Of a stretch of DNA of 64,000 bases, positions 3,972 to 33,705 are shown in pieces. The notes below the pieces were generated by a model, which made no database searches, was not told the DNA's origin, and worked only from the letters and a program-made list of their open reading frames with translations. Position numbers and translations under genes: made by a program. How positions within the stretch are numbered: the first letter of the stretch is position 1; each line of letters begins with the position of its first letter. The stretch comes from Steroidobacter agaridevorans (GTDB lineage: Bacteria; Pseudomonadota; Gammaproteobacteria; Steroidobacterales; Steroidobacteraceae), in the NCBI RefSeq assembly GCF_009932555.1, contig NZ_BLJO01000001.1:436472-500471 (forward strand), in the 5' to 3' direction.

Positions 3972-5942
3972 ATGTGCGGGATCGCAGGAATCATCGGCCT
4001 CGACGCTGAATACAGGCCGCAGCGCCACTCGCTGCAGGCCATGATCCAGGCGTTGCATCATCGCGGACCGGACGGCTACGGCGTGCTGGTCGACGGTCCC
4101 GTCGGGCTGGCGCACGCCCGGCTCAGCATCATCGACCTGAGCAGCGATGGCGATCAGCCCATGGGCAACGAAGACGGCTCGATCCAGATCGTCTTCAACG
4201 GCGAGATCTTCAATTACCTGGAGCTGCGCGCCGAGCTGCTGAAGGCCGGCCACCGTTTCAAGTCGCACTCCGACACCGAGACAATCGTCCATGCGTACGA
4301 GGAATACGGCGAGCGGTTTCTCGATAAACTCAATGGACAATTCGCCTTCGTGCTGTGGGACCGCCCGCGCCGGCGCGTGGTGCTCGCTCGCGACCGCGTC
4401 GGCATCCGGCCGCTGTATCTCGCTCGCGATGGCCGCCGCTTGTTGTTTGCTTCGGAGATCAAGTCCTTCGTCGCCGCCGACTTTCCACTGCGCCTGAATC
4501 CCCGTGGCCTGGGCCAGACGTTTACGTTCTGGTCCACCGTGGGCGAGGAAACTTCATTCGAAGGCGTGCGTGCGCTGCCGGCGGGTCACGTCATGGTGAT
4601 CGAAAACGGCGCCGAACGTGTTTCTCGCTACTGGGACTGGCAGGCTGCTCCGAAGGGCGCACCAGCTCCCGTCAGCTACGAAGCAGCGGCCACGCACGTA
4701 CGCGAGCTGCTCATCGACTCGGTCCGGCTGCAACTGCGCGCTGACGTTCCAGTGGGCGCTTACCTGAGCGGCGGCCTCGACTCCTCCGCCATCGTCAGCC
4801 TGATCAAGAATTACACCGACACTCCGCTGCGCACGTTCTCGGTCGCATTCGAAGACGCGGAATTCGATGAAAGCAGTTATCAGCAGGCGATGGTCGACTA
4901 CGCCGGCACCGATCACACGACCATACGCTGCACGCGACAAGACATCGGCCGCGAATTCCCACGGCTGGTCGAACATGCCGAAACGCCCGTGCTACGAACG
5001 GCGCCTGTGCCGCTGATGTTGTTGTCGGGATTGGTGCGCCAATCCGGTTACAAGGTCGTGCTCACGGGTGAAGGCGCGGATGAGATCTTCGGCGGCTATG
5101 ACTTGTTCAAGGAAGCGAAGGTGCGTCGCTTCTGGGCGCGCCAGCCCGAGTCGCGCGCACGGGCGGCGCTGCTCACTCGCCTGTATCCTTATCTGAAGCA
5201 CTCTCCTGTGGGCAATGCGGCGTTCGCAGGCAACTTCTACGGTCAAGGCCTCAGCGAGGTGAATGACCCGTTCTACGCGCACTTGCCGCGCTGGAACACG
5301 ACGCGACGGCTGTGGAATTTCCTGGCGCCCGACGTGCGTGCGTCGCTGCAGGACTGGGACCCGCACGCCGATCTGCGTGCACTGCTACCCGACGATTTCG
5401 GCAATTGGAACGAGCTCGGTCGGGATCAATACATCGAAGTCCAGACCCTGCTCTCGGGCTACCTGCTGAGCTCGCAGGGCGATCGCGTGGCCATGGCCAA
5501 TTCGATCGAAGGCCGTTTTCCGTTCCTCGATCATCGCGTGATCGAGTACTTGAACAGCCTGCCGGCGCGCTACAAGCTGCGTGGCCTCTACGAGAAAGCC
5601 ATTCTGCGTCGTGCCGTGCATGGCCTGCTGCCCGACGCGGTGCTTAACCGCGTCAAGCAGCCGTACCGCGCGCCGGACAGCATGAGCTTTTTTGCCGGCG
5701 GCAAGCCGCTCGACTACGTCGCCGAGCTGCTCAGCCCGGAACGCGTGGCGGCGAGCGGCTACTTCGATCCCCAGGCGGTGGCGCGCCTGCTGGAGAAGTG
5801 CCGGCAGGGCCGTGCGATCGGCTTCGCGGACAACATGGCGTTCGTTGGGATTCTCTCGACGATGCTGCTCGATGACAAATTCGTGCGTAGCCGGCGCTCC
5901 GGCGCAAGCACGGTTCCTCAAACGTTTCCTACGACTGCATAG
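3972..5942 (+). CDS. Asparagine synthetase-like glutamine-dependent amidotransferase (copy 1)
   Basis: A 656-residue two-domain AsnB family protein. The N-terminal class II glutaminase domain has the nucleophile Cys2 (MCGIAG) and the ammonia-site segments RGPDGYG (31-37), FNGEIFNY and SHSDTE (98-103). The C-terminal PP-loop synthetase domain has SGGLDSS (266-272) and GEGADE. It should activate a carboxylate with ATP and transfer ammonia from glutamine, giving an amide; family members in polysaccharide loci often act on substrates other than aspartate. It is the first gene of a run with a carrier protein (9-bp gap), an AMP ligase and an NAD-synthetase-like gene. Its closest relative here is the inverted paralogue at 21914-23890, with shared KQPYRAPDS and NMAF-GILSTML tail motifs. 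Confidence 0.9.
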   Translation: MCGIAGIIGLDAEYRPQRHSLQAMIQALHHRGPDGYGVLVDGPVGLAHARLSIIDLSSDGDQPMGNEDGSIQIVFNGEIFNYLELRAELLKAGHRFKSHSDTETIVHAYEEYGERFLDKLNGQFAFVLWDRPRRRVVLARDRVGIRPLYLARDGRRLLFASEIKSFVAADFPLRLNPRGLGQTFTFWSTVGEETSFEGVRALPAGHVMVIENGAERVSRYWDWQAAPKGAPAPVSYEAAATHVRELLIDSVRLQLRADVPVGAYLSGGLDSSAIVSLIKNYTDTPLRTFSVAFEDAEFDESSYQQAMVDYAGTDHTTIRCTRQDIGREFPRLVEHAETPVLRTAPVPLMLLSGLVRQSGYKVVLTGEGADEIFGGYDLFKEAKVRRFWARQPESRARAALLTRLYPYLKHSPVGNAAFAGNFYGQGLSEVNDPFYAHLPRWNTTRRLWNFLAPDVRASLQDWDPHADLRALLPDDFGNWNELGRDQYIEVQTLLSGYLLSSQGDRVAMANSIEGRFPFLDHRVIEYLNSLPARYKLRGLYEKAILRRAVHGLLPDAVLNRVKQPYRAPDSMSFFAGGKPLDYVAELLSPERVAASGYFDPQAVARLLEKCRQGRAIGFADNMAFVGILSTMLLDDKFVRSRRSGASTVPQTFPTTA

Positions 5943-5951
5943 GCGGGACGG

Positions 5952-6200
5952 ATGTCGACCAGAAGCGAAGTCAAATCTTTCATCCTCAAGAATTATCTGT
6001 TCACCGAAGATGATGCCGCGCTCGCCGACAGCGACTCGCTGATGCAGAAGGGCGTGGTGGATTCCACCGGCATCCTCGAGCTCATCATGCACGTGGAGGA
6101 CACCTACGGCATCAAGGTGCTCGATGAGGAGATGGTTCCGCAGAACCTCGACTCGGTCACCGCCATCTCGGCATTCGTCGAACGCAAGCGGGGCAAGTAA
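5952..6200 (+). CDS. Acyl/peptidyl carrier protein (cassette 1)
   Basis: An 82-residue stand-alone carrier protein. The phosphopantetheine attachment site is Ser38 in VVDSTGILEL (35-44), with the usual acidic residue before the Ser, and acidic helices follow. The DSTG version of the motif also occurs in the paralogous carrier at 20078-20332, unlike the DSL motif of fatty-acid ACP. It lies 9 bp after the asparagine-synthetase-like gene and 18 bp before the AMP ligase, which is the likely loading enzyme. A holo-ACP synthase encoded at 10768 could activate it. The cargo is not deducible. Confidence 0.9.
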   Translation: MSTRSEVKSFILKNYLFTEDDAALADSDSLMQKGVVDSTGILELIMHVEDTYGIKVLDEEMVPQNLDSVTAISAFVERKRGK

Positions 6201-6218
6201 CCGGTCGAGGCTGCACCG

Positions 6219-7748
6219 GTGCTGCTCACCGACAATCTCCGGGTCACTGCCGAGCGCCATCCACAGCGCTGCGCGATCCAGCATGGCGAGACCCAGCTGA
6301 GCTACGCGCAGCTGGCCCAGCGTGCCGAATCATTCGCGGCTCACCTGCTATCGCAAGGTTTGCAGCCAGGCGAACGGGTCGCATTGCTGATGGACAATTC
6401 CCCCGACTATGCAGCTGCGCTGTACGGCACGCTGCTCGCGGGTGGCATCGCTGTGACCTTGAACGCCGCCGCCAAGGCCCGCGAATTTGCCACGTGGCTG
6501 CGTCATAGCGAAGCCTCGTGGCTGGTCACCGAAGGTGACCGCCGGGAGGCAGCGCTGGCCGTCGCGGAAGTTGGCACATCGCCCAAGCTGCTCATTGCCG
6601 GCGCCGCGCGCCGCGATGAACGGCTCGCCGATGGTGAATCCCTCGAAGCCGTGCTCGCATCGGATGCGGTCGCAACCGCCCTGCCGACACTGCGTGCCGA
6701 TGCGCCCGCCTGCATCCTCTATACCTCGGGCACGACCGGCAATCCCAAGGGAGTCGTGCTCACTCATGGCAATCTCGCGAGCAATACGGACGCAATCGTC
6801 CGCTACCTCGAGTTGGCCGCCACCGACAGCATCGTCTCGATCCTGCCGTTTTATTACTCATACGGCAGCTCGGTACTTCACACTCACATTCGCGCCGGCG
6901 CGCGCATCGTGCTCGAAAACAATCTGGTCTACCCGCACCTCATCGTGGAACGCATGGCAGCCAACCGCGTTACCGGATTCGCCGGCGTTCCCTCGACCTT
7001 CGCGCTCCTGCTCCAACGCGTCGAGCTCGCCAAGTACGACCTCTCGGCGCTGCGCTATCTCACTCAGGCCGGCGGCGCGATGGCGCCGGTATTAACGCGG
7101 CGGCTGCGCGAAACATTGCCGCACACCCGCGTGTTTGTAATGTATGGACAGACCGAAGCCACCGCACGTCTTACCTACTTGCCGCCCGAGCGGCTGGAGG
7201 ACAAGCTCGGGTCGGTGGGCATCCCGGTCGAGGGCGTGAGCATCGAGATCCGCAACGACGAAGGCAGTCCACTGCCGCGCCTGCAGCCCGGAGAAGTATG
7301 GATCCGAGGACCGAACGTCATGCAAGGGTATTGGCGTGACGAGGCCGCGACTCGCAGCGTGCTCCGCGACGGCTGGCTGCGCACCGGCGATATGGGGCAT
7401 CTGGACGAGGAAGGCTACCTGTATTTGTCCGGCCGCCGCAGCGATATGATCAAGACGGGCGCGCATCGTGTGCACCCCAATGACGTAGAAGAAGTCATTC
7501 AAGAACTCGACCAGGTTGCCGAAGTCGCGGTCGTTGGCATCGACGATGAAACATTGGGTCAGGCGGTCGCAGCCTTCATCGTGCCCGCGTCCGGGCACAG
7601 CGGCGACGCGCTCCAGATCCGCAATCATTGCCGGGCACGACTCGCCAGCTACAAGGTCCCGAAGACGATCGAATTCGTAACCGCCCTGCCCCGCACCGCA
7701 TCGGGCAAGGTGCGCCGTGTGGAATTGGCACAGAGGAACTCACCGTGA
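6219..7748 (+). CDS. AMP-forming acyl-CoA/acyl-ACP ligase (cassette 1)
   Basis: A 509-residue ANL-superfamily adenylating enzyme starting at GTG 6219. It has the P-loop-like A3 motif YTSGTTGNPKG (168-178), the A5 motif YGQTEAT, the A7 motif LRTGDMG followed by GRRSDMIKTGAHRV, and the A10 Lys in PRTASGKVRR, so the ATP chemistry looks complete. It should activate a carboxylic acid as the adenylate and pass it to CoA or, given the adjacent carrier gene, to the phosphopantetheine of the carrier protein. The segment after A5 (ARLTYLPPERL) resembles the equivalent part of the paralogue at 20363-21895 (KRVTYLPPEQL). Its stop overlaps the next start as GTGA. Confidence 0.9.
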   Translation: MLLTDNLRVTAERHPQRCAIQHGETQLSYAQLAQRAESFAAHLLSQGLQPGERVALLMDNSPDYAAALYGTLLAGGIAVTLNAAAKAREFATWLRHSEASWLVTEGDRREAALAVAEVGTSPKLLIAGAARRDERLADGESLEAVLASDAVATALPTLRADAPACILYTSGTTGNPKGVVLTHGNLASNTDAIVRYLELAATDSIVSILPFYYSYGSSVLHTHIRAGARIVLENNLVYPHLIVERMAANRVTGFAGVPSTFALLLQRVELAKYDLSALRYLTQAGGAMAPVLTRRLRETLPHTRVFVMYGQTEATARLTYLPPERLEDKLGSVGIPVEGVSIEIRNDEGSPLPRLQPGEVWIRGPNVMQGYWRDEAATRSVLRDGWLRTGDMGHLDEEGYLYLSGRRSDMIKTGAHRVHPNDVEEVIQELDQVAEVAVVGIDDETLGQAVAAFIVPASGHSGDALQIRNHCRARLASYKVPKTIEFVTALPRTASGKVRRVELAQRNSP

Positions 7749-8749
7749 CGAACAAGGCCGACGATTTTTCCTGGAAGGTGCTCGATATCGATCTGGAAGC
7801 CGAAGCGAAGCGCATCACGGAGCGCCTGCGCGACGTGACTTCGCGCGTGCTGAACCGTCGCGGCCTGGTCGTCGCCATTTCCGGCGGCATCGACAGCTCC
7901 TGCTCGATCGCACTGGCGGTGCGCGCAATCGGCCCCGAGCGCGTGTTCGCCCTCATCCTGCCCGAACGCGATTCCTCGGATGACAGCGCGGTCCGCGGCA
8001 AGTTGCTGGCCGAGCACCTCGGCGTGCAGTACCACGTGCATGACATCGCGCCAGCGCTGGAAGCAATCGGCTGCTATCAATGGCGCGACGAGGCGATCAG
8101 TCGCGCGCTGCCCGGCTATGGTCCGGGCTGGCGCATGAAGATCGTGATCAGCGGCGGCATCGAAGGCCGCGTCAACACCTTCCATGTAGTCGCCGAGGCG
8201 CCCGACGGACGCAAGTTCGATGAGCGCCTGAACCTGCGCGACTATCTGCAGATCGTCGCTGCCACCAACTTCAAGCAGCGCCTGCGCAAGACGCTGGAGT
8301 ACTTCCATGCCGACCGGCTCAACTATGCCGTGGTCGGCACGCCGAACCGGCTGGAATACGACCAGGGCTTTTTCGTGAAGAACGGCGATGGCTCGGCGGA
8401 CGTGAAGCCGATCGCGCACCTCTACAAGTCGCAGGTGTACGCGATGGCCAAGCACCTCGGCCTGCCCGAGCGCATCACCTCGGCGGTGCCGACGACCGAT
8501 ACCTACAGCCTGCCGCAGGGTCAGGATGAGTTCTACTTCGCTCTGCCCTACCGCGAGATGGATCTGGCGTTGTGGGCGCTGAACCACCAGGTGCCCGCGG
8601 CACAACTGGCCAAGGTGCTCGGCTGCACCGAAGAGCGCGCGGCGTACATCTACCGGGATATCGAGACCAAACGCCGCACGACGCGCTACCTGCACCGCTC
8701 GCCGGTGCTGATGGAGTCTGTGAAGGAGATCACTCCGAACGTGGAGTGA
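7745..8749 (+). CDS. NAD-synthetase-like PP-loop ATP pyrophosphatase
   Basis: A 334-residue NadE-like protein without the glutaminase domain. The PP-loop SGGIDSSCS lies near residues 45-53, and the C-terminal half has the NadE-like stretches GTPNRLEYDQGFFVKNGDG and LYKSQVYAMAKHLGLP. I chose GTG 7745 because it overlaps the previous stop (GTGA); the frame upstream duplicates ligase coding sequence. Ahead of the second half it carries an additional glycine-rich stretch (KIVISGGIEGRVNTF) followed by EAPDGRKF that I do not recall in housekeeping NadE. Position in the amidotransferase/carrier operon suggests a specialised ammonia- or amine-dependent amidation rather than, or besides, NAD synthesis. 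Housekeeping NadE cannot be excluded. Confidence 0.8.
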   Translation: MTNKADDFSWKVLDIDLEAEAKRITERLRDVTSRVLNRRGLVVAISGGIDSSCSIALAVRAIGPERVFALILPERDSSDDSAVRGKLLAEHLGVQYHVHDIAPALEAIGCYQWRDEAISRALPGYGPGWRMKIVISGGIEGRVNTFHVVAEAPDGRKFDERLNLRDYLQIVAATNFKQRLRKTLEYFHADRLNYAVVGTPNRLEYDQGFFVKNGDGSADVKPIAHLYKSQVYAMAKHLGLPERITSAVPTTDTYSLPQGQDEFYFALPYREMDLALWALNHQVPAAQLAKVLGCTEERAAYIYRDIETKRRTTRYLHRSPVLMESVKEITPNVE

Positions 8750-8763
8750 ACGTCGGTCCGGAC

Positions 8764-8782
8764 GGGCCCGCCATGCGGGCCC
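8764..8782. terminator. Hairpin between convergent genes
   Basis: GGGCCCGC (8764-8771) and GCGGGCCC (8775-8782) form an 8-bp perfect stem with a CAT loop, 14 bases after the NadE-like stop codon and 12 before the end of the opposing gene. No U-tract follows on either strand; a bidirectional transcript-end hairpin is the simplest reading. Confidence 0.45.
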
Positions 8783-8794
8783 CCACCTCGTCTA

Positions 8795-9517
8795 TCAACT
8801 CGTTTTCGGCTGTGAGGCGAGGAATCGCATGAACTCGGTTGCGATCACCTCCTTGCCCCGCTCGCCCAGATGCCCGCCGTCGTATGTATACGACGGATCC
8901 AACGTCTCGATCTGTCGCGACCGGTACTCGAAGGTCCGGGCGCCAGCGGCAGCTTCCAGCCGCGCGATATCGAACAGCGCGTCGGCGCTGAAACGCTCGC
9001 GGATCCGCTGGTTGAATTGCTGTCGGCGCAGGTTGTGCTCATAGCCCGCCGGAGCCTTGCCCAGCACCTTCTTCATCCAGGCCTTAGGGCCCGTTTGAAT
9101 GGTCGTGAGCGGCGCCGTCATGGCGACGAAGCGTGTTTGGGGGTGCTGCGACTGCAGCTGCCCGAACGTCTCGCCATAGGTCGCCGCGAGCTTCTCCGGA
9201 TCCACGGCGCCGTTGAAATCGATGTAACAAAGCTTGAGCAGGGCCAGATCGGCCTGAGCAAATGCGTTGGCGCCCAGGGTGGCTGCGAAGTGCGCGATCT
9301 TGCCTTCCGGCTTGCCGTTCTCGCCGACCTTGAAATGCGCGATGCCTTGCCACTGCCCGGGGGCCTGGCTGGTTTCCACGATGGGCAGGGCCTGGCCCTG
9401 TTGCCGAGTCAGCGCCTGCACCCCGTCGAGAATGTCGTTGCCCACCGACTGATGGGCAAACACGATCCGTCGGCTCGCCACGGCGGCGATCTCGGCGGCG
9501 GTCAGAGTGGCGGACAT
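8795..9517 (-). CDS. SGNH-like hydrolase, cytoplasmic paralogue (uncharacterised)
   Basis: A 240-residue protein with no signal peptide. I recognise no named family, but it is clearly paralogous to the lipoprotein at 24288-25121: both share HQSVG (22-26 here), HFKVGENG, KLCYIDF, TAPLTTIQTGPKA, PAGYE and DGGHLGERGK. His22-Gln-Ser24 near the N-terminus and Asp213-Gly-Gly-His216 near the C-terminus are arranged like the nucleophile and DxxH blocks of SGNH/GDSL esterases, although a classic GDS motif is absent. Hydrolase activity is therefore inferred. It is convergent with the NadE-like gene and divergent from the flavin reductase gene; GGAGACC lies just before ATG 9517. Confidence 0.65.
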   Translation of the reverse strand: MSATLTAAEIAAVASRRIVFAHQSVGNDILDGVQALTRQQGQALPIVETSQAPGQWQGIAHFKVGENGKPEGKIAHFAATLGANAFAQADLALLKLCYIDFNGAVDPEKLAATYGETFGQLQSQHPQTRFVAMTAPLTTIQTGPKAWMKKVLGKAPAGYEHNLRRQQFNQRIRERFSADALFDIARLEAAAGARTFEYRSRQIETLDPSYTYDGGHLGERGKEVIATEFMRFLASQPKTS

Positions 9518-9549
9518 TACGGTCTCCTAATCCTTCGTAACGACGGGCT

Positions 9550-9558
9550 TGTTATACT
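9550..9558 (+). promoter_or_regulatory. Extended -10 promoter element
   Basis: TGTTATACT, an extended -10 (TGn plus TATACT, five of six consensus bases), lies in the divergent gap upstream of the flavin reductase gene. No good -35 box is visible at 17 bases, which is compatible with an extended -10 promoter. It may drive the operon up to 15894. Confidence 0.4.
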
Positions 9559-9652
9559 GCCCCTGGGCACGAGGACCTGACGTGCAGCACAGTTTGCACA
9601 GTTTACTCGAAGGCATAATTTGGCTGCTTGCTGCTCTCGCAGGAGCAACTCG

Positions 9653-9679
9653 ATGCAGTTCAGCAGTTCCAGCGCATGA
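9653..9679 (+). CDS. Possible 8-codon leader ORF upstream of flavin reductase
   Basis: ATG 9653 has a better Shine-Dalgarno (AGGAG, 9641-9645) than the downstream gene. It encodes MQFSSSSA and stops at TGA 9677-9679, overlapping ATG 9676 of the flavin reductase as ATGA. It could couple translation of the larger gene. It is too short for any homology argument. Confidence 0.3.
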   Translation: MQFSSSSA

Positions 9680-10668
9680 GTATTCCTGCCGATCAAATCC
9701 GCTCGTTCCGGAACGCGCTCGGCGCGTTCGCGACCGGCGTCACCGTGGTCACGACCCGGTCCGAGGAAAGCGGCGACGTTGGCCTGACCGCCAACAGCTT
9801 CAATTCGGTGTCGTTGGACCCTCCCATGGTCCTGTGGAGCCTGGCGAAAACATCGAAAGCGCTCAGCACCTTCATGACCTCGTCGCACTTCGCGGTTCAC
9901 GTCCTGGCCTCCGATCAAGAGGCGCTCTCGACGCGTTTCGCCCGCGCAGGCACGGATAAGTTCGCCGATCTCCCCATCGACCGCGGCGTCGGCGCCATCC
10001 CCCTTCTGACACACTGCTCGGCGCGCTTCCAATGCCGGACGGCCTTCCGTTACGAGGGCGGCGATCACATGATTTTCGTCGGCCAGGTCGAAGCCTTCGA
10101 TCACTGGGAGCGCCCGCCGCTGGTCTTCCACGCGGGCCGGTATGCGTCGGCCGTGCGGGTAATCAAGACTCCAGAAGCCCCGAGCGACGCCGAGCCCGAC
10201 AGCAGCTTCAGCCAGGACTTCCTCATCTATCTGCTCGGCCGCGCCCATCACCAGCTGTTCCTGCAGCTACGCAACTCCCTGCGTCGTTACGGGCTCAGCG
10301 AAGACGGCTGGTTCGTTCTGAGCCTGCTGGGCGTCGCCAACAACCGCACCCTGGATGAGCTGGGACGGCTGCTCGCCTATACCGGCAAGGGAATTACTTA
10401 CGATCTGCTCGCCAGCCTCGGCGCCGCCGGCTTCGTCAAGCTCGCCGGCTTCTATGACCCGCATGCCCGCGTCGAGCTCACGGACGCCGGCCGCAGAGTC
10501 GTGATCGAGTTGGTGGCGGCGGCCCGCGCGGCGGAAGATCATGCCCAGCGCAATCTCGACGACGCTCAAACGCACGTGCTGAAGCACGCCCTGCGCCAGA
10601 TCGTCAATGACTCACAGGTGGTCTCCCCGATGGCGGCGCCGAGCCTGGAGGGCGAACTGGATGAATAG
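9676..10668 (+). CDS. Flavin reductase with C-terminal MarR-like domain
   Basis: A 330-residue fusion. Residues 1-160 form a flavin reductase domain of the split-barrel type (RNALGAFATGVTVVTTR, LTANSFNSVSLDPPMV, HFAVHVLA, HMIFVGQVEAF). Residues 185-310 look like a MarR-type winged helix (HHQLFLQLRNSLRRYGLSEDG, TLDELGRLLAYTGKGI). The same architecture is known from the reductase of p-hydroxyphenylacetate 3-hydroxylase (C1), where the MarR-like domain is an effector-sensing autoinhibitory module rather than a repressor. It should supply reduced flavin to an oxygenase; the acyl-CoA-dehydrogenase-like protein at 16063 is a candidate partner by fold. I prefer ATG 9676, though the frame is open back to 9628. 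Confidence 0.85.
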   Translation: MSIPADQIRSFRNALGAFATGVTVVTTRSEESGDVGLTANSFNSVSLDPPMVLWSLAKTSKALSTFMTSSHFAVHVLASDQEALSTRFARAGTDKFADLPIDRGVGAIPLLTHCSARFQCRTAFRYEGGDHMIFVGQVEAFDHWERPPLVFHAGRYASAVRVIKTPEAPSDAEPDSSFSQDFLIYLLGRAHHQLFLQLRNSLRRYGLSEDGWFVLSLLGVANNRTLDELGRLLAYTGKGITYDLLASLGAAGFVKLAGFYDPHARVELTDAGRRVVIELVAAARAAEDHAQRNLDDAQTHVLKHALRQIVNDSQVVSPMAAPSLEGELDE

Positions 10669-10767
10669 TCAGGGCTGGACTTGCGTGCCGATTCACAGTT
10701 CCTTGACAGTGGCAAGGTCCGTTTGGGTCTTGTGAATGGCCGGTCGGCTGACCAAAATGGCGCGCTC

Positions 10768-11190
10768 ATGAGTTCGGGCTCGGAAGACTCTTCCGCAGGC
10801 CGGCCCCGCACGCTGCGCGTCGGCACGGACCTGGTTCAAATAAGTCGTATCGCCGAATCCATAGAGCGATTCGGCGACCGGTTCATCCGGCGGTTGTTCA
10901 CCGAGGGTGAAATCGCCTACGCGACGTCGAGCGAGTCTTTGCAGGCCGAACGGTTTGCCGCCCGGTTTTCGGCGAAGGAAGCGGCCATCAAAGCGCTGTC
11001 GCTGTCGGAGGACGGGCTCGATTGGAAACAAATCGAAGTGCTGCGCGCCGCGAACGGTGCGTGCACGTTGCGGCTGCACGGCGCAGCGCTTGCGGCTGCC
11101 GTCCAGGCAGGAATTCTCGAAATGAGCTTGAGCTTGAGTCATGAGGGCGACTATGCGACCGCCGTGGTTGTCTGCTTAGCCGCGTTATGA
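10768..11190 (+). CDS. Holo-[acyl-carrier-protein] synthase (AcpS-type phosphopantetheinyl transferase)
   Basis: A 140-residue AcpS-family enzyme that would transfer the 4'-phosphopantetheine arm of CoA to carrier proteins. The N-terminal magnesium/CoA motif GTDLVQISRI (starting at residue 19) and the second signature FAARFSAKEAAIKAL are both intact. ATG 10768 gives a length close to AcpS; the frame is open to TTG 10681, which would add 29 residues. It sits 30 bp before a carrier protein gene, and the usual acpS neighbours (era, recO, pdxJ) are absent, so it looks dedicated to the carrier proteins of this cluster. Whether the genome has another acpS cannot be seen here. Confidence 0.88.
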   Translation: MSSGSEDSSAGRPRTLRVGTDLVQISRIAESIERFGDRFIRRLFTEGEIAYATSSESLQAERFAARFSAKEAAIKALSLSEDGLDWKQIEVLRAANGACTLRLHGAALAAAVQAGILEMSLSLSHEGDYATAVVVCLAAL

Positions 11191-11475: not shown

Positions 11476-14028
11476 TTGCCCATGCCCGGCGCGATTCGCG
11501 GTCCAAACTCGCAGCACCGCGAATCACTGTCCTCGGGCTGGGAATTCTGCGCCCGTCCGCCGGACAGCGCGCTCTCGCCGCTTGAACTGAGCGAACAAAC
11601 AACCTGGCTCAAAGCGACCGTGCCATGCACGGCCGCCTCTGCGTTGCGCGAGCTCGGACAATGGAGCCTGGACAGCGCGCCGCGTCGGTTCGACGCGGAA
11701 GACTGGTGGTTTCGCTGTCACTTTTCCGCTTCCGACTCGAATGAGCAATGCACGCTCGGCTTCGATGGCCTGGCGACGCTCGCGGACGTGTGGCTGAACG
11801 GCGAGCACATCCTCGCGAGCGAGAACATGTTTGTCGCACATGAGGTCGACGTCACCGGTCGACTCCAGCAGCACAACTCGCTGTATCTGCGCTTTCGCAG
11901 CTTGGATAAAGCGCTCGCCGCCAAACGCCCGCGGCCGCGCTGGAAAGCCCCCATGATCGAGAATCAGCAACTGCGCTGGTTCCGAACGACGGTCCTCGGA
12001 CGCACGCCCGGATGGTCGCCCGCCGCTGCCGCCGTCGGGCCGTACCGGACCATCTGGCTCGAGTATCGAAAGGCACTCTCGGTCAAGCACGCGCAGCTGC
12101 GCACGTCCATCGACAACGGCAGCGGAAATGTCGATCTCGAATTGGAGCTTGCGTCGCCGAGCGCCGCGGCCATCGGAGCCCAGCTGACGGTCCGCCGAGG
12201 TGAGCAGATCATCAGAGGAACAACGCGCATCGAAGCCGGCCAGAGCCGCGCTCATGTGCATCTGGTCGTCTCCGATGTGCAACGATGGTGGCCGCACACG
12301 CATGGCGAGCCGGCACTCTACTCGGCGCAGCTTTCTCTCGAATCGCAATCGCCCTCGGGCGAAACGGTCTCTCAAGAAATCGGCCTGGGCCATTTTGGAT
12401 TCCGCGCCGTGCGCATCGATGCGAGCGACGGCGGCTTTCGTGTGATCGTCAACGACGTTCCGATCTTCTGCCGTGGCGCCTGCTGGACGCCGCTCGACAT
12501 CGTGTCGCTGCACGCCAGTGCTGGCGACTACGAACAAGCGATCGAGCAGGTGCGCGCTGCGGGCATGAACATGATCCGCATCGGCGGCACCATGGTGTAC
12601 GAGGACGATGCGCTGCTCGAGGCCTGCGATCGTCACGGAATTCTGGTCTGGCAGGAACTGATGTTCGCCAACATGGACTTCCCCCAAGGCGACCCGAAGT
12701 TCGATCGATCCGTGCAGCAGGAGCTGCATCAACAGCTCGGCCGGCTCATTTCTCATGCCTCGGTCGCGCTGATATGCGGCAACAGTGAAGTCGAACAGCA
12801 GGCTGCGATGTTCGGCGCCACTCGCGAACGATGGACGCCGCCGCTGTTTCACGAAGTCATCCCGGCGTTGATGCGCGAGGTCTGCCCGGACATGCCGTAC
12901 TGGCCGTCCAGTGCGCACGGCGGCTCCTTTCCGCATCAACCGAACGTTGGAACCGCTTCCTACTACGGTGTGGGCGCTTACTTGCGAGCGCTCGAAGATG
13001 CGCGCCGCTCCGAAGTGAGGTTCGCCTCCGAATGTCTCGCGTTCGCAAACGTTCCTGAAGATGCAACGATCGCGCGGATGCCAAGAGGAGCGGCGCTTCG
13101 CGTTCATCATCCCGAATGGAAAGCACGCACGCCGCGCGATCTCGGCGCCGGCTGGGACTTCGAAGACGTACGCGACCACTACGTGAAGGAGCTGTTCGGC
13201 ATCGATGTGCCCGCCTTGCGCTACTCCGATCACGATCGCTACCTTCACCTCGGGCGGATTGCCACTGCCGAAGTCATGGCAGCGACGTTTCCCGAGTGGC
13301 GCCGGAAACGCTCTTCATGTGCCGGCGGACTCGTTTGGTTCCTGCGCGATCTTGTCCCCGGCGCGGGCTGGGGCATCGTCGACTCTTTCGGACAACCGAA
13401 GTCTGCGTACTATGCGCTGCGTCGCGCGCTGCAGCCGGTCGCCGTGTTTATCAGTGATGAAGGCTGCAATGGACTTGCGATCCATGTAGTCAACGACAGC
13501 CGCGACGAGCTCAAGACGGTGCTCACAGTGAGCTTGTACCGAAATGGCGAGCCGCACGGCGCAGAGGTCCAACGCGAATTGACCCTTGGCGCGCATGAGA
13601 CGCTCGAGCTGGCGGCCAACGAATTCTTCGAGGGCTTCTACGACCTGGCGTATGCATATCGATTCGGGCCGAAGATTCACGATGTGATCGCCGCCACGTT
13701 GCGCGATCCGCGTGGAGACCTGTTGAGCGAACATGCCCACTTCCATCGTGGCGAGATCCTGCGGCGCGGCTCGGAGATCGAGATCGCCGCGGCGCTGACG
13801 CACGACGAGCTGGGCGTTCCGACGCTCCGGGTCAGCTCGAAGAAATTCGCTCAAAGCGTGTACATCGACACGCCGGGCGCAGTGCCTCACGACAACTACT
13901 TCCATCTTCTTCCCGGCGGATCGCGGACGATTCGCTTCCCCCATGCCCTTGCCGGCCAACGAATCGAAGGAACCGTTCGGGCGCTCAACAGTGTGAGCGC
14001 AGTGCCCATTGTGTTTTCAGCGCCATGA
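11476..14028 (+). CDS. Glycoside hydrolase family 2 protein (beta-mannosidase-like)
   Basis: An 850-residue GH2 protein. The N-terminal jelly-roll sugar-binding domain covers about residues 20-200 (WWFRCHF, GLATLADVWLNGEHI), an Ig-like domain follows, then the TIM barrel from about 325. Candidate catalytic residues are Glu438 in CGNSEVEQ (acid/base) and Glu519 in FASECLAF (nucleophile); both are in GH2-like contexts. No signal peptide is visible, so it would act in the cytoplasm, which is unusual for an EPS-degrading enzyme and fits trimming or transglycosylation of an intermediate. The frame starts at TTG 11476, with ATG 11482 two codons later. Its stop overlaps the acyltransferase start as ATGA. 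Confidence 0.88.
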   Translation: MPMPGAIRGPNSQHRESLSSGWEFCARPPDSALSPLELSEQTTWLKATVPCTAASALRELGQWSLDSAPRRFDAEDWWFRCHFSASDSNEQCTLGFDGLATLADVWLNGEHILASENMFVAHEVDVTGRLQQHNSLYLRFRSLDKALAAKRPRPRWKAPMIENQQLRWFRTTVLGRTPGWSPAAAAVGPYRTIWLEYRKALSVKHAQLRTSIDNGSGNVDLELELASPSAAAIGAQLTVRRGEQIIRGTTRIEAGQSRAHVHLVVSDVQRWWPHTHGEPALYSAQLSLESQSPSGETVSQEIGLGHFGFRAVRIDASDGGFRVIVNDVPIFCRGACWTPLDIVSLHASAGDYEQAIEQVRAAGMNMIRIGGTMVYEDDALLEACDRHGILVWQELMFANMDFPQGDPKFDRSVQQELHQQLGRLISHASVALICGNSEVEQQAAMFGATRERWTPPLFHEVIPALMREVCPDMPYWPSSAHGGSFPHQPNVGTASYYGVGAYLRALEDARRSEVRFASECLAFANVPEDATIARMPRGAALRVHHPEWKARTPRDLGAGWDFEDVRDHYVKELFGIDVPALRYSDHDRYLHLGRIATAEVMAATFPEWRRKRSSCAGGLVWFLRDLVPGAGWGIVDSFGQPKSAYYALRRALQPVAVFISDEGCNGLAIHVVNDSRDELKTVLTVSLYRNGEPHGAEVQRELTLGAHETLELAANEFFEGFYDLAYAYRFGPKIHDVIAATLRDPRGDLLSEHAHFHRGEILRRGSEIEIAAALTHDELGVPTLRVSSKKFAQSVYIDTPGAVPHDNYFHLLPGGSRTIRFPHALAGQRIEGTVRALNSVSAVPIVFSAP

Positions 14029-15227
14029 CAACAGCACAGAGCAGCGTGTCCGTCGCCCCGGTGCAAAAGCTGCACTTCTTCCAGCACATTCCCGCTCTGG
14101 ACGGGCTGCGCGGGATTGCGATCCTGCTGGTCCTGATCCACAACGCCGGGCATTTCGGCGCCCATCCTTCGGGCGCCTTTTGGGTGACGGCGCTGATCGC
14201 CGCCATCGGCTGGGTCGGCGTGCAGCTGTTTTTCGTGCTCTCGGGCTTTCTGATCACGGCCAAGCTGCTCGAGACTCAAGACGCACCGAACTACTTCTCG
14301 GTGTTCTTCGGCCGTCGGATCTTGCGGATCTTCCCGCTCTACTACGCCGCTCTCATCGTGGGATTGCTGATCGTTCCCGCCATTACACAGCAGCCTGCCG
14401 GCGGCGAAGCGTCCACTTCGCACCAGGTCTGGCTTTGGACATTCCTGCTGAACTGGGTACATCCGCTGGGACTGCCGACCTACGGCTTTCCGCATTTCTG
14501 GTCGCTCGCCGTCGAAGAACAGTTCTATCTCATCTGGCCGTTCATCGTTTACAAAGCGACTCAGACCACACTCGCACGCACCTGCTACGCCCTGATCGCA
14601 GCCGCGCTCGTGATTCGAACCGTTCTCGCGCTCGGCGGAGCGACCGAGGACATGATCTACGAATTCACCTTTTGCCGGATGGACGCGTTGGCGATGGGCG
14701 CGCTGCTAGCCGTGTGGCTGCAATCGCCGGATCGCACCCGACTGCTGCAGGAAAAAGCGGCTGCGCGGCTGATTCCAGCTGCGTTCGCAATAGTGCTGCT
14801 TGGAGCGGTGTTCTCGCGCCTTTACACACGCAGCCTGCTGTTTACCCAGACGCTCGGCTACACGTTGCTGGCCGTGTTCTTTGCATTGATCCTGCTCGCG
14901 TGCCTGATCGGCACCAGCAAGCTCAATCGATGGTGTCGGCAGTTCCTGTCGACGTCCTTGCTGCGTTCCCTCGGCAAATACAGCTTCGCGATGTACGTGT
15001 TCCATTTCCCGATCCAGTTGCGCCTGGAGAGCTTCCTGCCGCTGTTCGAACAGCGCTTTGCAGCCTGGTCCGGGATTGCGTTCCTGGTCGTCGTGGGGCT
15101 GGCCAGCTATGTCGCGGCTTTCTTCTCCTATCATCTTTATGAGAAGCATTTCCTGCGGCTGAAGTCGTGGTTCACTCCGCGAGCACGCCTCGAGCCCTCG
15201 CAATCCGAACTGCCCAGGCATGCGTGA
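14025..15227 (+). CDS. Acyltransferase 3 family membrane protein (OafA-like)
   Basis: A 400-residue integral membrane acyltransferase with about ten hydrophobic segments. The N-terminus has the family signature PALDGLRGIAILLVLIHNAGH, with the conserved His, and FFVLSGFLIT. RILRIFPLYY and the Trp-Ser-Leu-Ala-Val-Glu-Glu-Gln motif (HFWSLAVEEQFY) are also present. Such proteins move acetyl or other acyl groups across the membrane onto glycans. It overlaps the GH2 gene by 4 bases and the esterase gene by 8, so these three are almost certainly co-translated. The donor and acceptor are not deducible. Confidence 0.9.
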   Translation: MTTAQSSVSVAPVQKLHFFQHIPALDGLRGIAILLVLIHNAGHFGAHPSGAFWVTALIAAIGWVGVQLFFVLSGFLITAKLLETQDAPNYFSVFFGRRILRIFPLYYAALIVGLLIVPAITQQPAGGEASTSHQVWLWTFLLNWVHPLGLPTYGFPHFWSLAVEEQFYLIWPFIVYKATQTTLARTCYALIAAALVIRTVLALGGATEDMIYEFTFCRMDALAMGALLAVWLQSPDRTRLLQEKAAARLIPAAFAIVLLGAVFSRLYTRSLLFTQTLGYTLLAVFFALILLACLIGTSKLNRWCRQFLSTSLLRSLGKYSFAMYVFHFPIQLRLESFLPLFEQRFAAWSGIAFLVVVGLASYVAAFFSYHLYEKHFLRLKSWFTPRARLEPSQSELPRHA

Positions 15228-15936: not shown

Positions 15937-16062
15937 GCCCACCAGATCACGGACATTCCGTTCCAGCATGCTAGAGTGCGCGCCAAATATGCGACCGGCT
16001 GCTCATTTTTCAGATCTCGGATCTTTTCGTGACAGCGCCCTTTTCTCCATCGTGTGACGCGC

Positions 16063-17244
16063 ATGACAACTAATGTTCGGAATCCCGGCTTCCCACAACT
16101 GCTCAGCGCGGTCAAGGCGATTGCCGACGGCGTGGCTCGAGAAAACGCCGCAGATGTGGACAGCAAAAGCCGCTTCCCCATTGAATCGGTCAAGGCGCTG
16201 AAGGAGGCATCCGTCCTCTCGGCGCTGATTCCGAAGGAACTGGGCGGCGCGGGCTGCTCCATGCGCGAGGCTGCCGAGTTGTGTTCGACACTGGCGCACG
16301 GCTGCGGCTCGAGCGGCATGGTGCTGGCGATGCATTTCAGTCAGCTCGCCTGCCTCACGCGACACGCTCTCGGCTCGGCGTGGTTCGTGAGCTACCTGCG
16401 AGAATTGGTCCAGCACCAGTACTTGCTGGCCTCGATTACCTCGGAGGTCGGCACGTTCGGCGACACTCGCTCGAGCATCTGTGCCGTGGAGCGCTCCAAC
16501 GGCCGGTTTGTGTTGAACAAGCAAGCAACCACGGGCTCGTACTGCGGACATGCGGATGCGATTCTGGTCACGTGCCGTCGTGCGCCCGATGCGCCCAACA
16601 ACGATCAGGTGCTCGTGCTGGTGCGCGAAGGCGACTACAAGCTCACTCAGACCACGACCTGGGACACGATGGGAATGCGCGGTACGTGCAGCCCCGGGTT
16701 CAACCTCGAATCGTCCGGCGACGAACAGCAGATCGTGCCGGGCAGCTTTGCCGACTCGTCGGCGCAGAGCATGGTGCCCTACTCGCACATTCTTTGGTCC
16801 TCGCTCTGGTGGGGCATTGCAGCCGATGCCGTTGCGCGCGCCGCTGCAACGGTTCGTGGGGAAGCGCGAAAGAAGCCCGGCACCGTTCCTCCGGCCGCCT
16901 CCCGGCTGGCCGCTGTCTGGACGCAGCTGCAAACCATGAAGCACAACTGGCTGGCGCTGGCCCAGGAATTCGATGAGATCGACAGCAGCGCCGATGGCAA
17001 GGAAGAGCTGATGAGCATCGGTTGGGCGCTGAAGATGAACAGCCTCAAGGTGAGCGCGTCGGAAACCGCGCCCCAGATCGTGCACCAGGCGCTGCAGATC
17101 ACCGGCGTCATGGGCTACAAGAACGATTCGAAGTTCAGCGTGGCGCGCCACTATCGTGACGTTCTGTCCGCCGCGTTGATGATTTCCAACGATCGCATCC
17201 TCTCCAAGAGCGCCTCCATGCTGCTGGTGTTCAAGGACGAGTGA
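16063..17244 (+). CDS. Acyl-CoA-dehydrogenase-fold flavoprotein lacking the usual catalytic Glu
   Basis: A 393-residue member of the acyl-CoA dehydrogenase superfamily: N-terminal helical domain (ALIPKELGGAG), central beta domain (ITSEVGTFGD, RFVLNKQATTGSYCGHAD, DTMGMRGTCSPGF) and a C-terminal helical domain ending in VMGYKNDSKFSVARHYRDV. Aligned by hand after the RD pair, the position of the MCAD catalytic Glu (YEGT) is occupied by Ile (SAALMISNDR), so simple alpha,beta-dehydrogenation is doubtful. The same fold is used by two-component flavin monooxygenases fed by a separate flavin reductase, and such a reductase is encoded at 9676. With the aminoacyl-carrier ligase 22 bp downstream, a carrier-bound aminoacyl group is a likely substrate. 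The start could also be GTG 16054. Confidence 0.8.
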   Translation: MTTNVRNPGFPQLLSAVKAIADGVARENAADVDSKSRFPIESVKALKEASVLSALIPKELGGAGCSMREAAELCSTLAHGCGSSGMVLAMHFSQLACLTRHALGSAWFVSYLRELVQHQYLLASITSEVGTFGDTRSSICAVERSNGRFVLNKQATTGSYCGHADAILVTCRRAPDAPNNDQVLVLVREGDYKLTQTTTWDTMGMRGTCSPGFNLESSGDEQQIVPGSFADSSAQSMVPYSHILWSSLWWGIAADAVARAAATVRGEARKKPGTVPPAASRLAAVWTQLQTMKHNWLALAQEFDEIDSSADGKEELMSIGWALKMNSLKVSASETAPQIVHQALQITGVMGYKNDSKFSVARHYRDVLSAALMISNDRILSKSASMLLVFKDE

Positions 17245-17266
17245 CCGCGAGTATCAGGAACAGCCC

Positions 17267-18178
17267 ATGAGCATCGACTACGATCCCCAGAAATTTTATG
17301 ACGAGCTGGTCGCCGCCGGGCACATCTACCCGGTCGGCGTGCAAGGCGCGTTCGGCCGCGGTCCCGTGTTCGAGCGCATCGTCGATCGCTTCAACGACCT
17401 GGTCAGCGAGATCGCGCGCAACGACGGCGCCGAAACGCGCACCTACCCGCCGGTGGTGAGCCGCAAGGTCATCGAAAAGAACAACTATCTCGAATCGTTT
17501 CCTCATCTGTGCGGAACGGTGTTCAGCTTCTTCGGCAAGGAGCTCGAAGGCCGCGAGATGGCACGCAAGGCCGCTCAAGGCGAAACCTGGTCGGAGCACC
17601 TCAAAGTGACCGACCTGTGTCTGACGCCGGCGATCTGCTATCCGCTGTATCCGACGCTCAAGGGCAAGCTGCCGCCCGGCGGCGGCCTGTATTCGCTGCT
17701 CGGCTGGGCGTATCGGCACGAGCCTTCGACCGAGCCGACGCGCATGCAGTCCTTCCGCATGCGCGAGTTCATTCGTGCCGGCACCGCCGACCAAGTCGTC
17801 GAGTGGCGTGACATGTGGCTGCAGCGTGGCCTCGAGCTGCTGCGCTCGCTCGGTCTGAATGCAAATTCAGACGTGGCGGCCGATCCCTTCTTCGGACGCG
17901 GCGGCAAGATGATGGCGCAGAACCAGCGCGAGCAGCGCCTGAAATTCGAAGTGCTGATCCCGGTGATCTCGGCCGAGAATCCCACCGCCTGTTGCTCGTT
18001 CAACTTCCATCAGGACCACTTCGGCTCCAAATGGGAGATCCAGACCGCCGACGGCGAAGTCGCCAACACCGCCTGCCTGGGATTCGGGCTGGAGCGGATC
18101 GCGATGGCCCTTTTCAAGACTCACGGCTGCAACGTCGAGCAGTGGCCTGCAGACGTCCGCCGCCGCCTCTCGATCTAG
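17267..18178 (+). CDS. Amino acid:[carrier protein] ligase (class II aaRS-like)
   Basis: A 303-residue homologue of the catalytic domain of atypical seryl-tRNA synthetase, without a tRNA-binding arm. Class II motif 2 (MQSFRMREFIRAG, 160-172) and motif 3 (ACLGFGLERIAMALF, 269-283) are present. Cys124, Glu167 and Cys270 are candidate zinc ligands, matching the Cys-Glu-Cys site of the characterised Bradyrhizobium enzyme. Those relatives activate glycine or alanine and acylate a stand-alone carrier protein instead of tRNA. Its partner here is probably the carrier at 11221-11469. AGGAAC precedes ATG 17267 and the DUF1839 gene follows after 7 bp. Amino acid specificity cannot be read from the sequence. 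Confidence 0.9.
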   Translation: MSIDYDPQKFYDELVAAGHIYPVGVQGAFGRGPVFERIVDRFNDLVSEIARNDGAETRTYPPVVSRKVIEKNNYLESFPHLCGTVFSFFGKELEGREMARKAAQGETWSEHLKVTDLCLTPAICYPLYPTLKGKLPPGGGLYSLLGWAYRHEPSTEPTRMQSFRMREFIRAGTADQVVEWRDMWLQRGLELLRSLGLNANSDVAADPFFGRGGKMMAQNQREQRLKFEVLIPVISAENPTACCSFNFHQDHFGSKWEIQTADGEVANTACLGFGLERIAMALFKTHGCNVEQWPADVRRRLSI

Positions 18179-18185
18179 AACACTC

Positions 18186-19169
18186 ATGCGCCGCGTCGTC
18201 ATTCCGGATCTCGATTCCTCGCGTTACGCCCGTCACGTCCTGCACACGGATGCGAGCGTCTGGACGGAGAAGAACTGCTACGCCGATCTTTGGATCGAGC
18301 TGTTGCACGCGTTGCGCCTCGATCCGGTCGCGATGCTGCCGTTCACGATCGCCATCGACTTCGAAGGCGATCAATGGACCTTCTTCAAACCTTCGCATGA
18401 CGAGCTCTACGAGCTCTACGGCGTCGATGTGCAGGAGCTCACGATCTGGCGCCCGCTGCTCGAGCACGCCAAGGAACAACTCGGCGCCGGCAAGCTCGTC
18501 AGCACCGAAGCCGACGCGTTCTGGCTGCCCGACACCGCCGGCACCGACTATCGGAATCAGCACACCAAGACGACGATCGTGCTGAACGATCTCGACCTGG
18601 AGCAGCAGCGCCTCAGCTATTTCCACAACGCCGGGTACTACACGCTCGAAGGCGAAGACTTCATCAAGACGTTCCGGCTCGATGCGCCGGAAGATCCGGC
18701 GTTCATGCCGCTGTACTGCGAATTCGTGCGCGTCACGCGGGCGCGCCAGCGCTCACAAGCCGAGCTCGCGGCGATGTCCTGGGAGTTGCTGCGCAAACAT
18801 TTCCGGCGTATTCCCAGCGAGAATCCGATTGCACGCTTCCGTGACCGCTTCAACGCGGACCTGCCGACCATGCAGGCTCGTGGCTTGAAGTTCTATCACG
18901 CCTGGGCGTTCGCAGCGACGCGGCAACTCGGCTCTGCGTTCGAGCTTGCGGCATTCAACCTGCGCTGGTTGGAAAGCTGCGGCCGCTCCGGTCTGGAGCC
19001 TGCCGCGCAAGCTTTCCTCGACATCTCGAATGCCTGCAAAGCCTTCATCCTCAAGGGCGCACGCGCGGTCAATTCCAAAAAGCCTTACGACGGATCTGCA
19101 ATGTTTGCAGAGCTGCACGACGCCTGGTCGCGCGGCATGGATGTAATCGATCGACAGATTCGCTCGTAA
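18186..19169 (+). CDS. DUF1839 family protein
   Basis: A 327-residue soluble protein of a domain family of unknown function that I know as a neighbour of amino acid:[carrier protein] ligases. Visible conserved-looking parts are the N-terminal ASVWTEKNCYADLWIELLHA, the middle DAFWLPDTAGTDYRNQHTKT, and FHNAGYYTLEGEDF. The Cys and the DTAGTDYRNQHTKT segment suggest a catalytic or ligand-binding site, and by context it could take the aminoacyl group from the carrier to the next acceptor. It ends at 19169, directly abutting the end of the opposing methyltransferase gene with no spacer. No function is claimed beyond context. Confidence 0.85.
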   Translation: MRRVVIPDLDSSRYARHVLHTDASVWTEKNCYADLWIELLHALRLDPVAMLPFTIAIDFEGDQWTFFKPSHDELYELYGVDVQELTIWRPLLEHAKEQLGAGKLVSTEADAFWLPDTAGTDYRNQHTKTTIVLNDLDLEQQRLSYFHNAGYYTLEGEDFIKTFRLDAPEDPAFMPLYCEFVRVTRARQRSQAELAAMSWELLRKHFRRIPSENPIARFRDRFNADLPTMQARGLKFYHAWAFAATRQLGSAFELAAFNLRWLESCGRSGLEPAAQAFLDISNACKAFILKGARAVNSKKPYDGSAMFAELHDAWSRGMDVIDRQIRS

Positions 19170-20081: not shown

Positions 20082-20332
20082 GCCGCGCGGGTTTTCGACG
20101 CCACGAAGCGTGCGACGTTCTCGAGGCTGTCCAGATTCTCCGGGAGCATCTCCTCATCCGCAATTCGGATCCGGTAGGTGGATTCCAGAAACGTCACGAG
20201 CTCGATAAAGCCCGTCGAATCGATAATGTGATGATCGAGAAAGGATCGATCGTCGGTCAGCTGCTCACCCCCATCGCCCATGAGAAAGTTCTCGAGGATG
20301 TAGCTGCGCACCGTTTTTTTGATGTCATGCAT
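20078..20332 (-). CDS. Acyl/peptidyl carrier protein (cassette 2)
   Basis: An 84-residue carrier protein with phosphopantetheine Ser39 in IIDSTGFIEL (36-45). It resembles the cassette 1 carrier through the shared DSTG-I-EL core and the later ENLDSLENVARFV segment (compare QNLDSVTAISAFV), indicating a common ancestor. It lies 30 bp after the AMP ligase, with an AGAGGG Shine-Dalgarno before ATG 20332, and overlaps the methyltransferase gene by 4 bases. Confidence 0.9.
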   Translation of the reverse strand: MHDIKKTVRSYILENFLMGDGGEQLTDDRSFLDHHIIDSTGFIELVTFLESTYRIRIADEEMLPENLDSLENVARFVASKTRAA

Positions 20333-20362
20333 CGTCGTGCCCTCTAATAATCATGGGCGGGA

Positions 20363-21895: not shown

Positions 21896-21913
21896 TGACT
21901 ACTCGCACATCGA

Positions 21914-33671: not shown

Positions 33672-33705
33672 ATTCGATCCGGCAGTGAAGGTCGGCGATC
33701 CAGTC

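Follow-up and report, generated by a model that had tools for sequence, protein, structure and literature searches.

Hydrolases of the GDSL/SGNH type (PF13472, PF00657), among them 7pzh, PAF acetylhydrolase (1wab) and acetyl xylan esterase (7ddy), have the same fold as the protein family described here. In both, a Ser follows strand 1, a Gly follows strand 2 and a DxxH motif precedes the last helix, and the profile match between them is weak but real. The family differs in block I, which reads [GA]-H-Q-S, and in block III, which reads C-[YF]-x-D and contains no Asn. Departures of this kind have been described in other SGNH families. According to one review (PMC9487903), SASA enzymes lack the block III Asn and line an inverted oxyanion hole with a Gln adjacent to the catalytic Ser; block III of XOAT1 contains hydrophobic residues, and BcPatB1 relies on an Arg. 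OafB, as described in a second paper (PMC7448272), lacks the block III Asn and has an Asn in block II.

The SASA/CE6 sialate O-acetylesterases (PF03629) resemble the family in having a Gln before the Ser and no block III Asn; we read GQS directly in 12 SASA proteins of relatives. Their block III QGE motif is however absent from the family, which reads KxC[YF]xD. The Gln preceding the Ser prompted a test of kinship with SASA enzymes, which was rejected at the sequence level, with an hhalign probability of 0.1 against the 12 SASA proteins. In the AT3-fused SGNH domains (OafB, OafA; PF19040), XOAT1 and BcPatB1, the triad is kept and the block III Asn is absent or unused (PMC7448272, PMC9487903), as in the family. 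The block II Asn of OafB suggests that N67 of the family might serve likewise. Unlike the AT3-fused proteins, family members stand alone, without a membrane acyltransferase domain.

The closest described gene neighbourhoods are the exosortase A-associated sets (TIGR03098, TIGR03108) and the conserved EPS clusters of Zoogloea and Aquincola, which are reported to contain two asparagine synthetase genes (PMC9012009). Both hold neighbours of the same kinds as the family's. We analysed a stretch of 64,000 nucleotides from Steroidobacter agaridevorans, hereafter the window, which has an exosortase A gene and an AsnB-like gene beside each of two family copies. It differs from the exosortase A-associated sets in that its two ligases score below the TIGR03098 cut-off, whilst the two amidotransferases adjoining the family copies, and a third at 35047-36849, score below the TIGR03108 cut-off. 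Among the open-licence PMC matches listed, we found neither an SGNH partner in the exosortase A-associated and EPS cluster literature nor any description of this family or of a cassette of this kind that includes an SGNH protein. PMC1569441, the founding PEP-CTERM paper, contains none of the terms ligase, hydrolase, amidotransferase, asparagine synth, carrier protein or TIGR03098. What is known is the fold and probable chemistry; what is new is a family with altered blocks I and III, and the company its genes keep.

Two family copies adjoin two carrier cassettes

Copy 1 (P0001; ORF 8795-9517, minus strand) encodes 240 residues from an ATG with AGGAG, read by eye, immediately 5' of it. Its open frame, at 243 residues, starts just three codons 5' of this ATG and thus leaves no room for an overlooked signal peptide. 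An earlier note on this DNA had called the protein cytoplasmic. Copy 2 (P0002; ORF 24288-25121, plus strand) encodes 277 residues and has a lipobox-like LAAGC near residue 20. The two proteins were identical at 102 of 236 positions in BLASTP (43%, E 4e-72). The blocks that the note had listed as shared, HQSVG, KLCYxDF, TAPLTTxQTGPKA and DGGHL, were all present in both. Searching the host genome with P0001 at E 0.001 returned the two window copies and nothing else. No promoter-like or terminator-like sites were found in positions 8700-9700 of the window.

Each copy adjoins a carrier cassette. The note had placed one copy on each side of a single carrier-protein cluster; the adjacency stands, but there are two cassettes, AsnB-ACP-ligase-NadE at 3972-8749 and ACP-ligase-AsnB at 20078-23890. 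The first, on the plus strand, begins with an AsnB-like glutamine-dependent amidotransferase (3972-5942; TIGR01536 500.4 bits, above the cut-off of 267.1). An acyl carrier protein-like gene follows (5952-6200; NF052616 E 1.6e-14, below cut-off), whose product contains a DSTG motif; we take the Ser of this motif to be the phosphopantetheine site. Next come an AMP-dependent acyl ligase (6219-7748; PRK06187 E 1.5e-122 and TIGR03098 E 1.2e-112, both below cut-off) and a NadE-like amide ligase (PRK00876/NF002048; 484.4 bits against a cut-off of 313). The longest ORF of the latter spans 7628-8749, but its profile match begins at residue 44 and its true start is therefore probably the GTG at 7745.

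The second cassette, on the minus strand, consists of an acyl carrier protein-like gene (20078-20332; NF052616 E 7.9e-17, below cut-off), an AMP-dependent acyl ligase (20363-21895; TIGR03098 E 7.4e-141, below cut-off) and an AsnB-like glutamine-dependent amidotransferase (21914-23890; TIGR01536 537.6 bits, again above 267.1). Neither carrier protein matched Pfam at 1e-5. Directly 3' of copy 2 on the plus strand lie two hexapeptide-repeat (CysE/EpsC-like) acyltransferase genes, at 25127-25768 (NF041874 E 1.1e-16, below cut-off; PF00132) and 25765-26337 (NF041874 E 7e-23, below cut-off). Further along, an exosortase A gene (54289-55794; TIGR03109 241.9 bits against a cut-off of 208) and many sugar genes, identified by eye, make the window an exosortase/exopolysaccharide region.

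The third asparagine-synthase-like protein (35047-36849; TIGR01536 142 bits, below the cut-off) and a PaaK-like AMP ligase (32292-33839; NF045666 132.5 bits, below cut-off) are beside no family copy. An amino acid--[carrier protein] ligase at 17267-18178 scored 409.7 bits with NF005479 (cut-off 357) and matched PDB 4h2w (E 3e-83) and 3mey (E 2e-80). Positions 16054-20332 also encode an acyl-CoA dehydrogenase, a DUF1839 protein, a HemK-like methyltransferase and a carrier protein. At 1e-12, the HemK-like query matched 3 of the 80 family loci described below, and the amino acid--[carrier protein] ligase, DUF1839 and acyl-CoA dehydrogenase queries matched none. A 4'-phosphopantetheinyl transferase (10681-11190; PF01648), which could activate the two window carrier proteins, has a homologue in 3 of the 80 loci. 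Adjoining copy 1 is a gene with a flavin reductase domain (9628-10668; NF045919 E 4e-60, below cut-off), whose C-terminal extension resembles p-hydroxyphenylacetate hydroxylase reductase; it matched none of the 80 loci at 1e-12. An AT3 membrane acyltransferase is encoded at 14025-15227, and a link between the family and such enzymes was considered; it was discarded because only 2 of the 80 loci contain homologues of the two AT3-like proteins of the window.

Predicted models support an SGNH hydrolase fold

The earlier note had suggested a possible SGNH-type hydrolase, to be checked by structure prediction and comparison with SGNH folds. AlphaFold2 returned confident models for copy 1 (pLDDT 95.6, pTM 0.92; 80-row alignment) and copy 2 (pLDDT 92.2, pTM 0.85; 49-row alignment). 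In both cases the best matches among natural proteins were SGNH/GDSL enzymes. For copy 1, the top Foldseek matches in the PDB were such enzymes at TM-scores of about 0.5, including 2hsj (E 1.1e-6), the Phocaeicola sialic acid esterase 7pzh (E 1.3e-6), gonococcal PatB 7tjb (E 3.4e-6) and brain PAF acetylhydrolase (E 9.1e-6). The TesA complex 9ge8 (E 1.2e-3) and SsfX3 (3skv; E 1.3e-3) were also matched. Lumazine synthases accounted for 3 of the 42 rows at E <=0.001, with TM-scores of about 0.3.

VIA-align gave the same picture. The best natural protein was 4ppy for copy 1 (Z 15.4, rmsd 3.2, 179 aligned) and 4rw0 for copy 2 (Z 15.8, rmsd 2.9, 174 aligned). Over the 50 matches listed per copy, Z ranged from 13.1 to 16.0 for copy 1 and from 13.3 to 16.6 for copy 2, and the listed matches of both copies covered 162-187 residues at an rmsd of 2.8-4.2 A. 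The designed scaffolds 9hi4-9hi6 stood at or near the top of both lists. The remaining matches listed were esterases, lipases, acylhydrolases and acyltransferases by title, many of them named GDSL; they include 5jd3, titled an alpha/beta hydrolase, and 7bxb and 7bxc, which carry locus names only.

Sequence profiles gave a fainter signal. PF13472 scored 14.7 bits on copy 1 and 17.8 bits on copy 2 (E 0.046 and 0.0051) against a gathering cut-off of 32.9, and PF00657 scored 16.5 bits on copy 2 against 23.6; both window copies thus fall short of the Pfam gathering cut-offs for these GDSL families. Across the family, 21 of 80 members matched PF13472 at E <=0.01, 14 matched PF00657 and two matched PF19040. 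No NCBIfam model matched either copy at E 1. PDB sequences gave nothing convincing, with best E-values of 1.3 (phmmer, P0001) and 0.13 (family profile); the family-profile rows 7ddy and 2hsj are SGNH enzymes and were matched at their DxxH ends. Compared with four GDSL proteins of the host genome, a yardstick drawn from its six GDSL matches, the family reached an hhalign probability of 93.4%. Taken together, the predicted models support an SGNH hydrolase fold for both window copies. A fold shared with SGNH enzymes does not, alone, establish function.

The family is thinly scattered over many phyla

A scan of GTDB genomes gave 88 confirmed stretches, of which 80 were analysed as loci; six of these coincide with loci L003-L008 and each was counted once. 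Members occur sparsely across a wide range of bacterial phyla: Pseudomonadota, Myxococcota, Acidobacteriota, Actinomycetota, Nitrospirota, Bacteroidota, Ignavibacteriota, Gemmatimonadota, Cyanobacteriota, Spirochaetota, Thermodesulfobacteriota and others. Because most hosts are metagenome bins, individual host names may be incorrect. A metagenome-assembled genome titled Bordetella parapertussis (locus L051), for example, has a family member and cassette genes, and we consider its species label doubtful. In 398 genomes of the phylum, the family profile at E 1e-10 matched the host genome only, a count that may be too low as six or fewer candidates were scored in most of the 21 rows listed. The co-occurrence test described below was therefore run on 98 relatives, of which seven, the host genome included, have the family. 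No plasmid record matched P0002.

In the tree, the window pair clustered with three Methylococcaceae proteins (support 100/99) and not with other Steroidobacteraceae members. Within this group copy 2 was nearer to the Methylococcaceae proteins than to copy 1 (90/56), and the two window copies paired together in 6% of bootstrap trees.

Candidate active site and oxyanion hole

The aligned set comprised 80 proteins: both copies from the window together with 78 from the loci. L082, with a broken frame, and L084, cut by a contig end, were excluded from the alignment and residue counts and retained among the 80 loci. Rows were unweighted for kinship, with one pair more than 90% alike. Sixteen positions were invariant in 80/80: F20, H22, S24, V25, G26, N67, K73, C97, D100, Y114, T134, P136, N169, A185, D213 and H216. 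Ser24, Asp213 and His216 form the candidate triad. The Ser and DxxH that had been singled out in copies 1 and 2 are thus conserved throughout the aligned family, with the qualification that block I columns, that of the Ser included, were partly pre-selected, as the genome scan required F[GA]H[QH]SVG[NAE][ND]. Five copies outside this pattern, aligned by eye, retained H22 and S24 in 5/5, D100 in 5/5 and C97 in 4/5. DxxH was present in four of them and has altered spacing in the fifth, in L114. Position 23 was Gln in 73 and His in 7 of the pattern-selected proteins, and Gln in 4/5 and Arg in 1/5 of the off-pattern copies. Divergent copies were seen in L112, with Arg for the Gln before Ser and Gly for Cys97, and in L114 (1901 bases, from the Anaeromyxobacter genome of L016), which holds two in tandem.

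These residues fall at the places expected for SGNH blocks. In the copy 1 model S24 comes after strand 17-22, and the usual GDS of block I has become [GA]-H-Q-S, its G and D gone. The block II Gly, assigned by its place in the fold without superposed coordinates, would be G65 (73/80; Ala in 4, Pro in 3), which follows strand 58-63; Asn67 stands two residues after it. Block III corresponds to the C97-D100 loop after strand 91-94, where K-[FL]-C-[YF]-x-D stands in place of GxND, and the DxxH of block V precedes the last helix. When the family was compared with the host GDSL proteins, hhalign aligned CYID of P0001 with GTND and matched the Asp and His of DGGH to those of DGxHPN. This profile comparison spans residues 86-233, so the assignment of blocks I and II rests on the order of strands and helices.

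No Asn was found at positions 95-101 in any of the 80 aligned members. The earlier SGNH-type label thus holds for the fold, the Ser and the DxxH but not for block III. Strictly applied, the label is barred by the absent Asn, whilst fold and triad are unaffected, as known active families also lack this residue (PMC9487903, PMC7448272). One of the GDSL yardstick proteins, L092, reads LGYGD and likewise has no block III Asn; its loss is therefore not unique to the family. The oxyanion hole must consequently use other donors. The candidates are perhaps the Gln, His or Arg directly before the Ser, or the invariant Asn67.

Recurrent neighbours of the family

We next consider the company of family genes at the 80 loci. 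Earlier counts by ORF linkage had found AsnB at 40 loci, hexapeptide genes at 39, ligase at 37, carrier at 28 and NadE-like genes at 24. Neighbours were recounted by tblastn because the representative of a recurrent ORF cluster had no Pfam match and reverse-strand ORFs were suspected of hiding genes. Queries came from the window and from loci L009, L010 and L017. As controls, 20 loci were taken from host genomes, each 15-20 kb long and with a weak match to the NadE model at its centre. The AsnB-like amidotransferase was found at 50/80 family loci and 0/20 controls, the carrier protein and the AMP-dependent ligase each at 46/80 and 0/20, and the NadE-like gene at 42/80 and 1/20. A strict count put the CysE-like hexapeptide gene at 14/80 against 0/20, and exosortase was found at 10/80 against 0/20. 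At least one of five cassette genes was present at 54/80 loci and at least three at 44/80. The remaining 26 had none, and 11 of these are among the 52 loci of at least 18 kb. The expectation that the family tracks AsnB/carrier clusters is thus borne out at most loci but fails at these 26.

The most compact arrangement is that of three Methylococcaceae loci, where AsnB, carrier, ligase, NadE-like, SGNH and two CysE-like genes follow one another on one strand; the carrier is unlabelled in one of these loci and the ligase appears as two ORFs in another. By comparison, the gene arrangement of the window resembles this cassette split apart and duplicated.

The NadE-like gene was also linked to the family at the level of whole genomes. 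NF002048 was over cut-off in 16 of the 98 relatives, host genome included: in 7/7 with the family and 9/91 without it (Fisher 8e-7, uncorrected for kinship). It was over cut-off in one of 14 well-known control genomes, and in 35 of 40 family host genomes with five lacking it. Among 29 host genomes checked for both, 24 hold the family and the NadE-like gene, and in 19 of these 24 both fall on a single contig, at most 8.3 kb apart. With 26 of 80 loci free of cassette genes and 5 of 40 hosts without a NadE-like gene, the link is strong but not obligatory.

Further recurrent neighbours were exosortase, FemAB-like, polysaccharide deacetylase, aminotransferase, flippase and glycosyltransferase genes. 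Together with the exosortase A of the window, these place the family in a surface-sugar setting. A Pfam scan of 75 of the 148 unlabelled neighbours, those adjoining the family gene, found DAHP synthase most often (6/75); among the 25 of 41 families listed, every other Pfam family was found in at most 2/75. These DAHP synthase neighbours belong to Thiodiazotropha-type loci such as L039, L045, L054, L067 and L078; all five of these lack the cassette genes. Six ORFs immediately upstream, in L039 and similar loci, form one cluster and are perhaps the same DAHP synthase genes.

Proposed role in surface glycan modification

We propose that family members are SGNH-fold serine enzymes, either esterases or acyltransferases, whose target is an acyl group on a surface glycan made with the cassette, a reading to which we give a probability of roughly 0.58. 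Judged by their families, the cassette enzymes suffice to activate an acid, transfer it to a carrier and form an amide, and the hexapeptide proteins could acylate sugars. The cassette would assemble a cytoplasmic sugar unit bearing an acyl or amide group. The SGNH protein, in most cases apparently exported or lipid-anchored, would then remove or move an acyl group on the glycan outside. In the predicted reaction, Ser24 of the F-[GA]-H-Q-S-V-G block would attack an ester or thioester carbonyl with the aid of Asp213 and His216, and the acyl group would pass to water or another hydroxyl. The oxyanion hole may be lined by the residue before the Ser or by Asn67. Copy 1, which has no signal, might do likewise on a cytoplasmic precursor or on a carrier protein. 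Against the proposal stand the cassette-free loci, the low strict count of the hexapeptide gene (14/80) and the scarcity of exosortase (10/80).

The place of action is where this proposal meets its main rival. By a crude rule applied to script-chosen start codons, the N-terminus is hydrophobic or lipobox-like in 65 of the 80 locus proteins, whilst the other 15 and P0001 have no signal. The majority led us to favour an exported esterase or acyltransferase working on a surface glycan. P0001 and the signal-less minority fit poorly with one common place of action and would suit a cytoplasmic thioesterase or acyltransferase able to remove the acyl group directly from the ligase-loaded carrier protein. 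The presence of a carrier-protein gene at 46 of the 80 loci agrees with such an enzyme, as do the thioesterase and acyl-transfer SGNH enzymes among the fold matches (TesA complex 9ge8, SsfX3 3skv). The carrier protein is cytoplasmic, however, and a hydrophobic or lipobox-like N-terminal stretch is found in the 65 locus proteins, including the three Methylococcaceae relatives with the most compact cassette, and in copy 2. We therefore regard action on the carrier protein as unlikely, while treating it as the most serious competitor of the exported, glycan-directed enzyme.

Much less probable is an ordinary GDSL esterase that sits in a carbohydrate region by chance and has no tie to the carrier cassette. 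In its favour, five further GDSL proteins over the Pfam cut-off are encoded elsewhere in the host genome, and 26 of the 80 loci are cassette-free. Chance does not readily account for AsnB, carrier, ligase and NadE-like genes at 42-50 of 80 loci against 0-1 of 20 controls, for a NadE-like gene in every one of the seven family genomes among the relatives against 9/91 others, or for the closeness of the two genes on one contig in most of the hosts that have both (19/24, from 24/29). The absence of the block III Asn could in principle mean a weakened or non-catalytic member, but a binding or scaffold subunit with an SGNH fold is improbable: the Asn is missing from 80/80 proteins and the GD of GDS is replaced, yet Ser24, Asp213 and His216 persist in 80/80 over many phyla, unexpected for a dead active site, and other SGNH families without that Asn are active (PMC9487903, PMC7448272).

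The exported, glycan-directed enzyme thus remains our preferred reading. A wider version of it is tentative and, on balance, doubtful. The family may be a distinct SGNH family within the GDSL lineage with an oxyanion hole of its own, built from the Gln, His or Arg before the Ser and perhaps Asn67, which would resemble the inverted hole of SASA enzymes despite the lack of sequence kinship. It may act as the exported finishing enzyme of a widespread, undescribed pathway that charges a dedicated carrier protein with an acid, amidates this acid (through AsnB and NadE-like enzymes) and attaches it to surface glycans in many phyla.

If the proposed role is true, the family would offer an entry point to a conserved, uncharacterised glycan-modifying cassette, through a soluble, single-domain enzyme that could be assayed directly. 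It would also be a testable case of how serine hydrolases rebuild an oxyanion hole without the residue that gives the superfamily its name.
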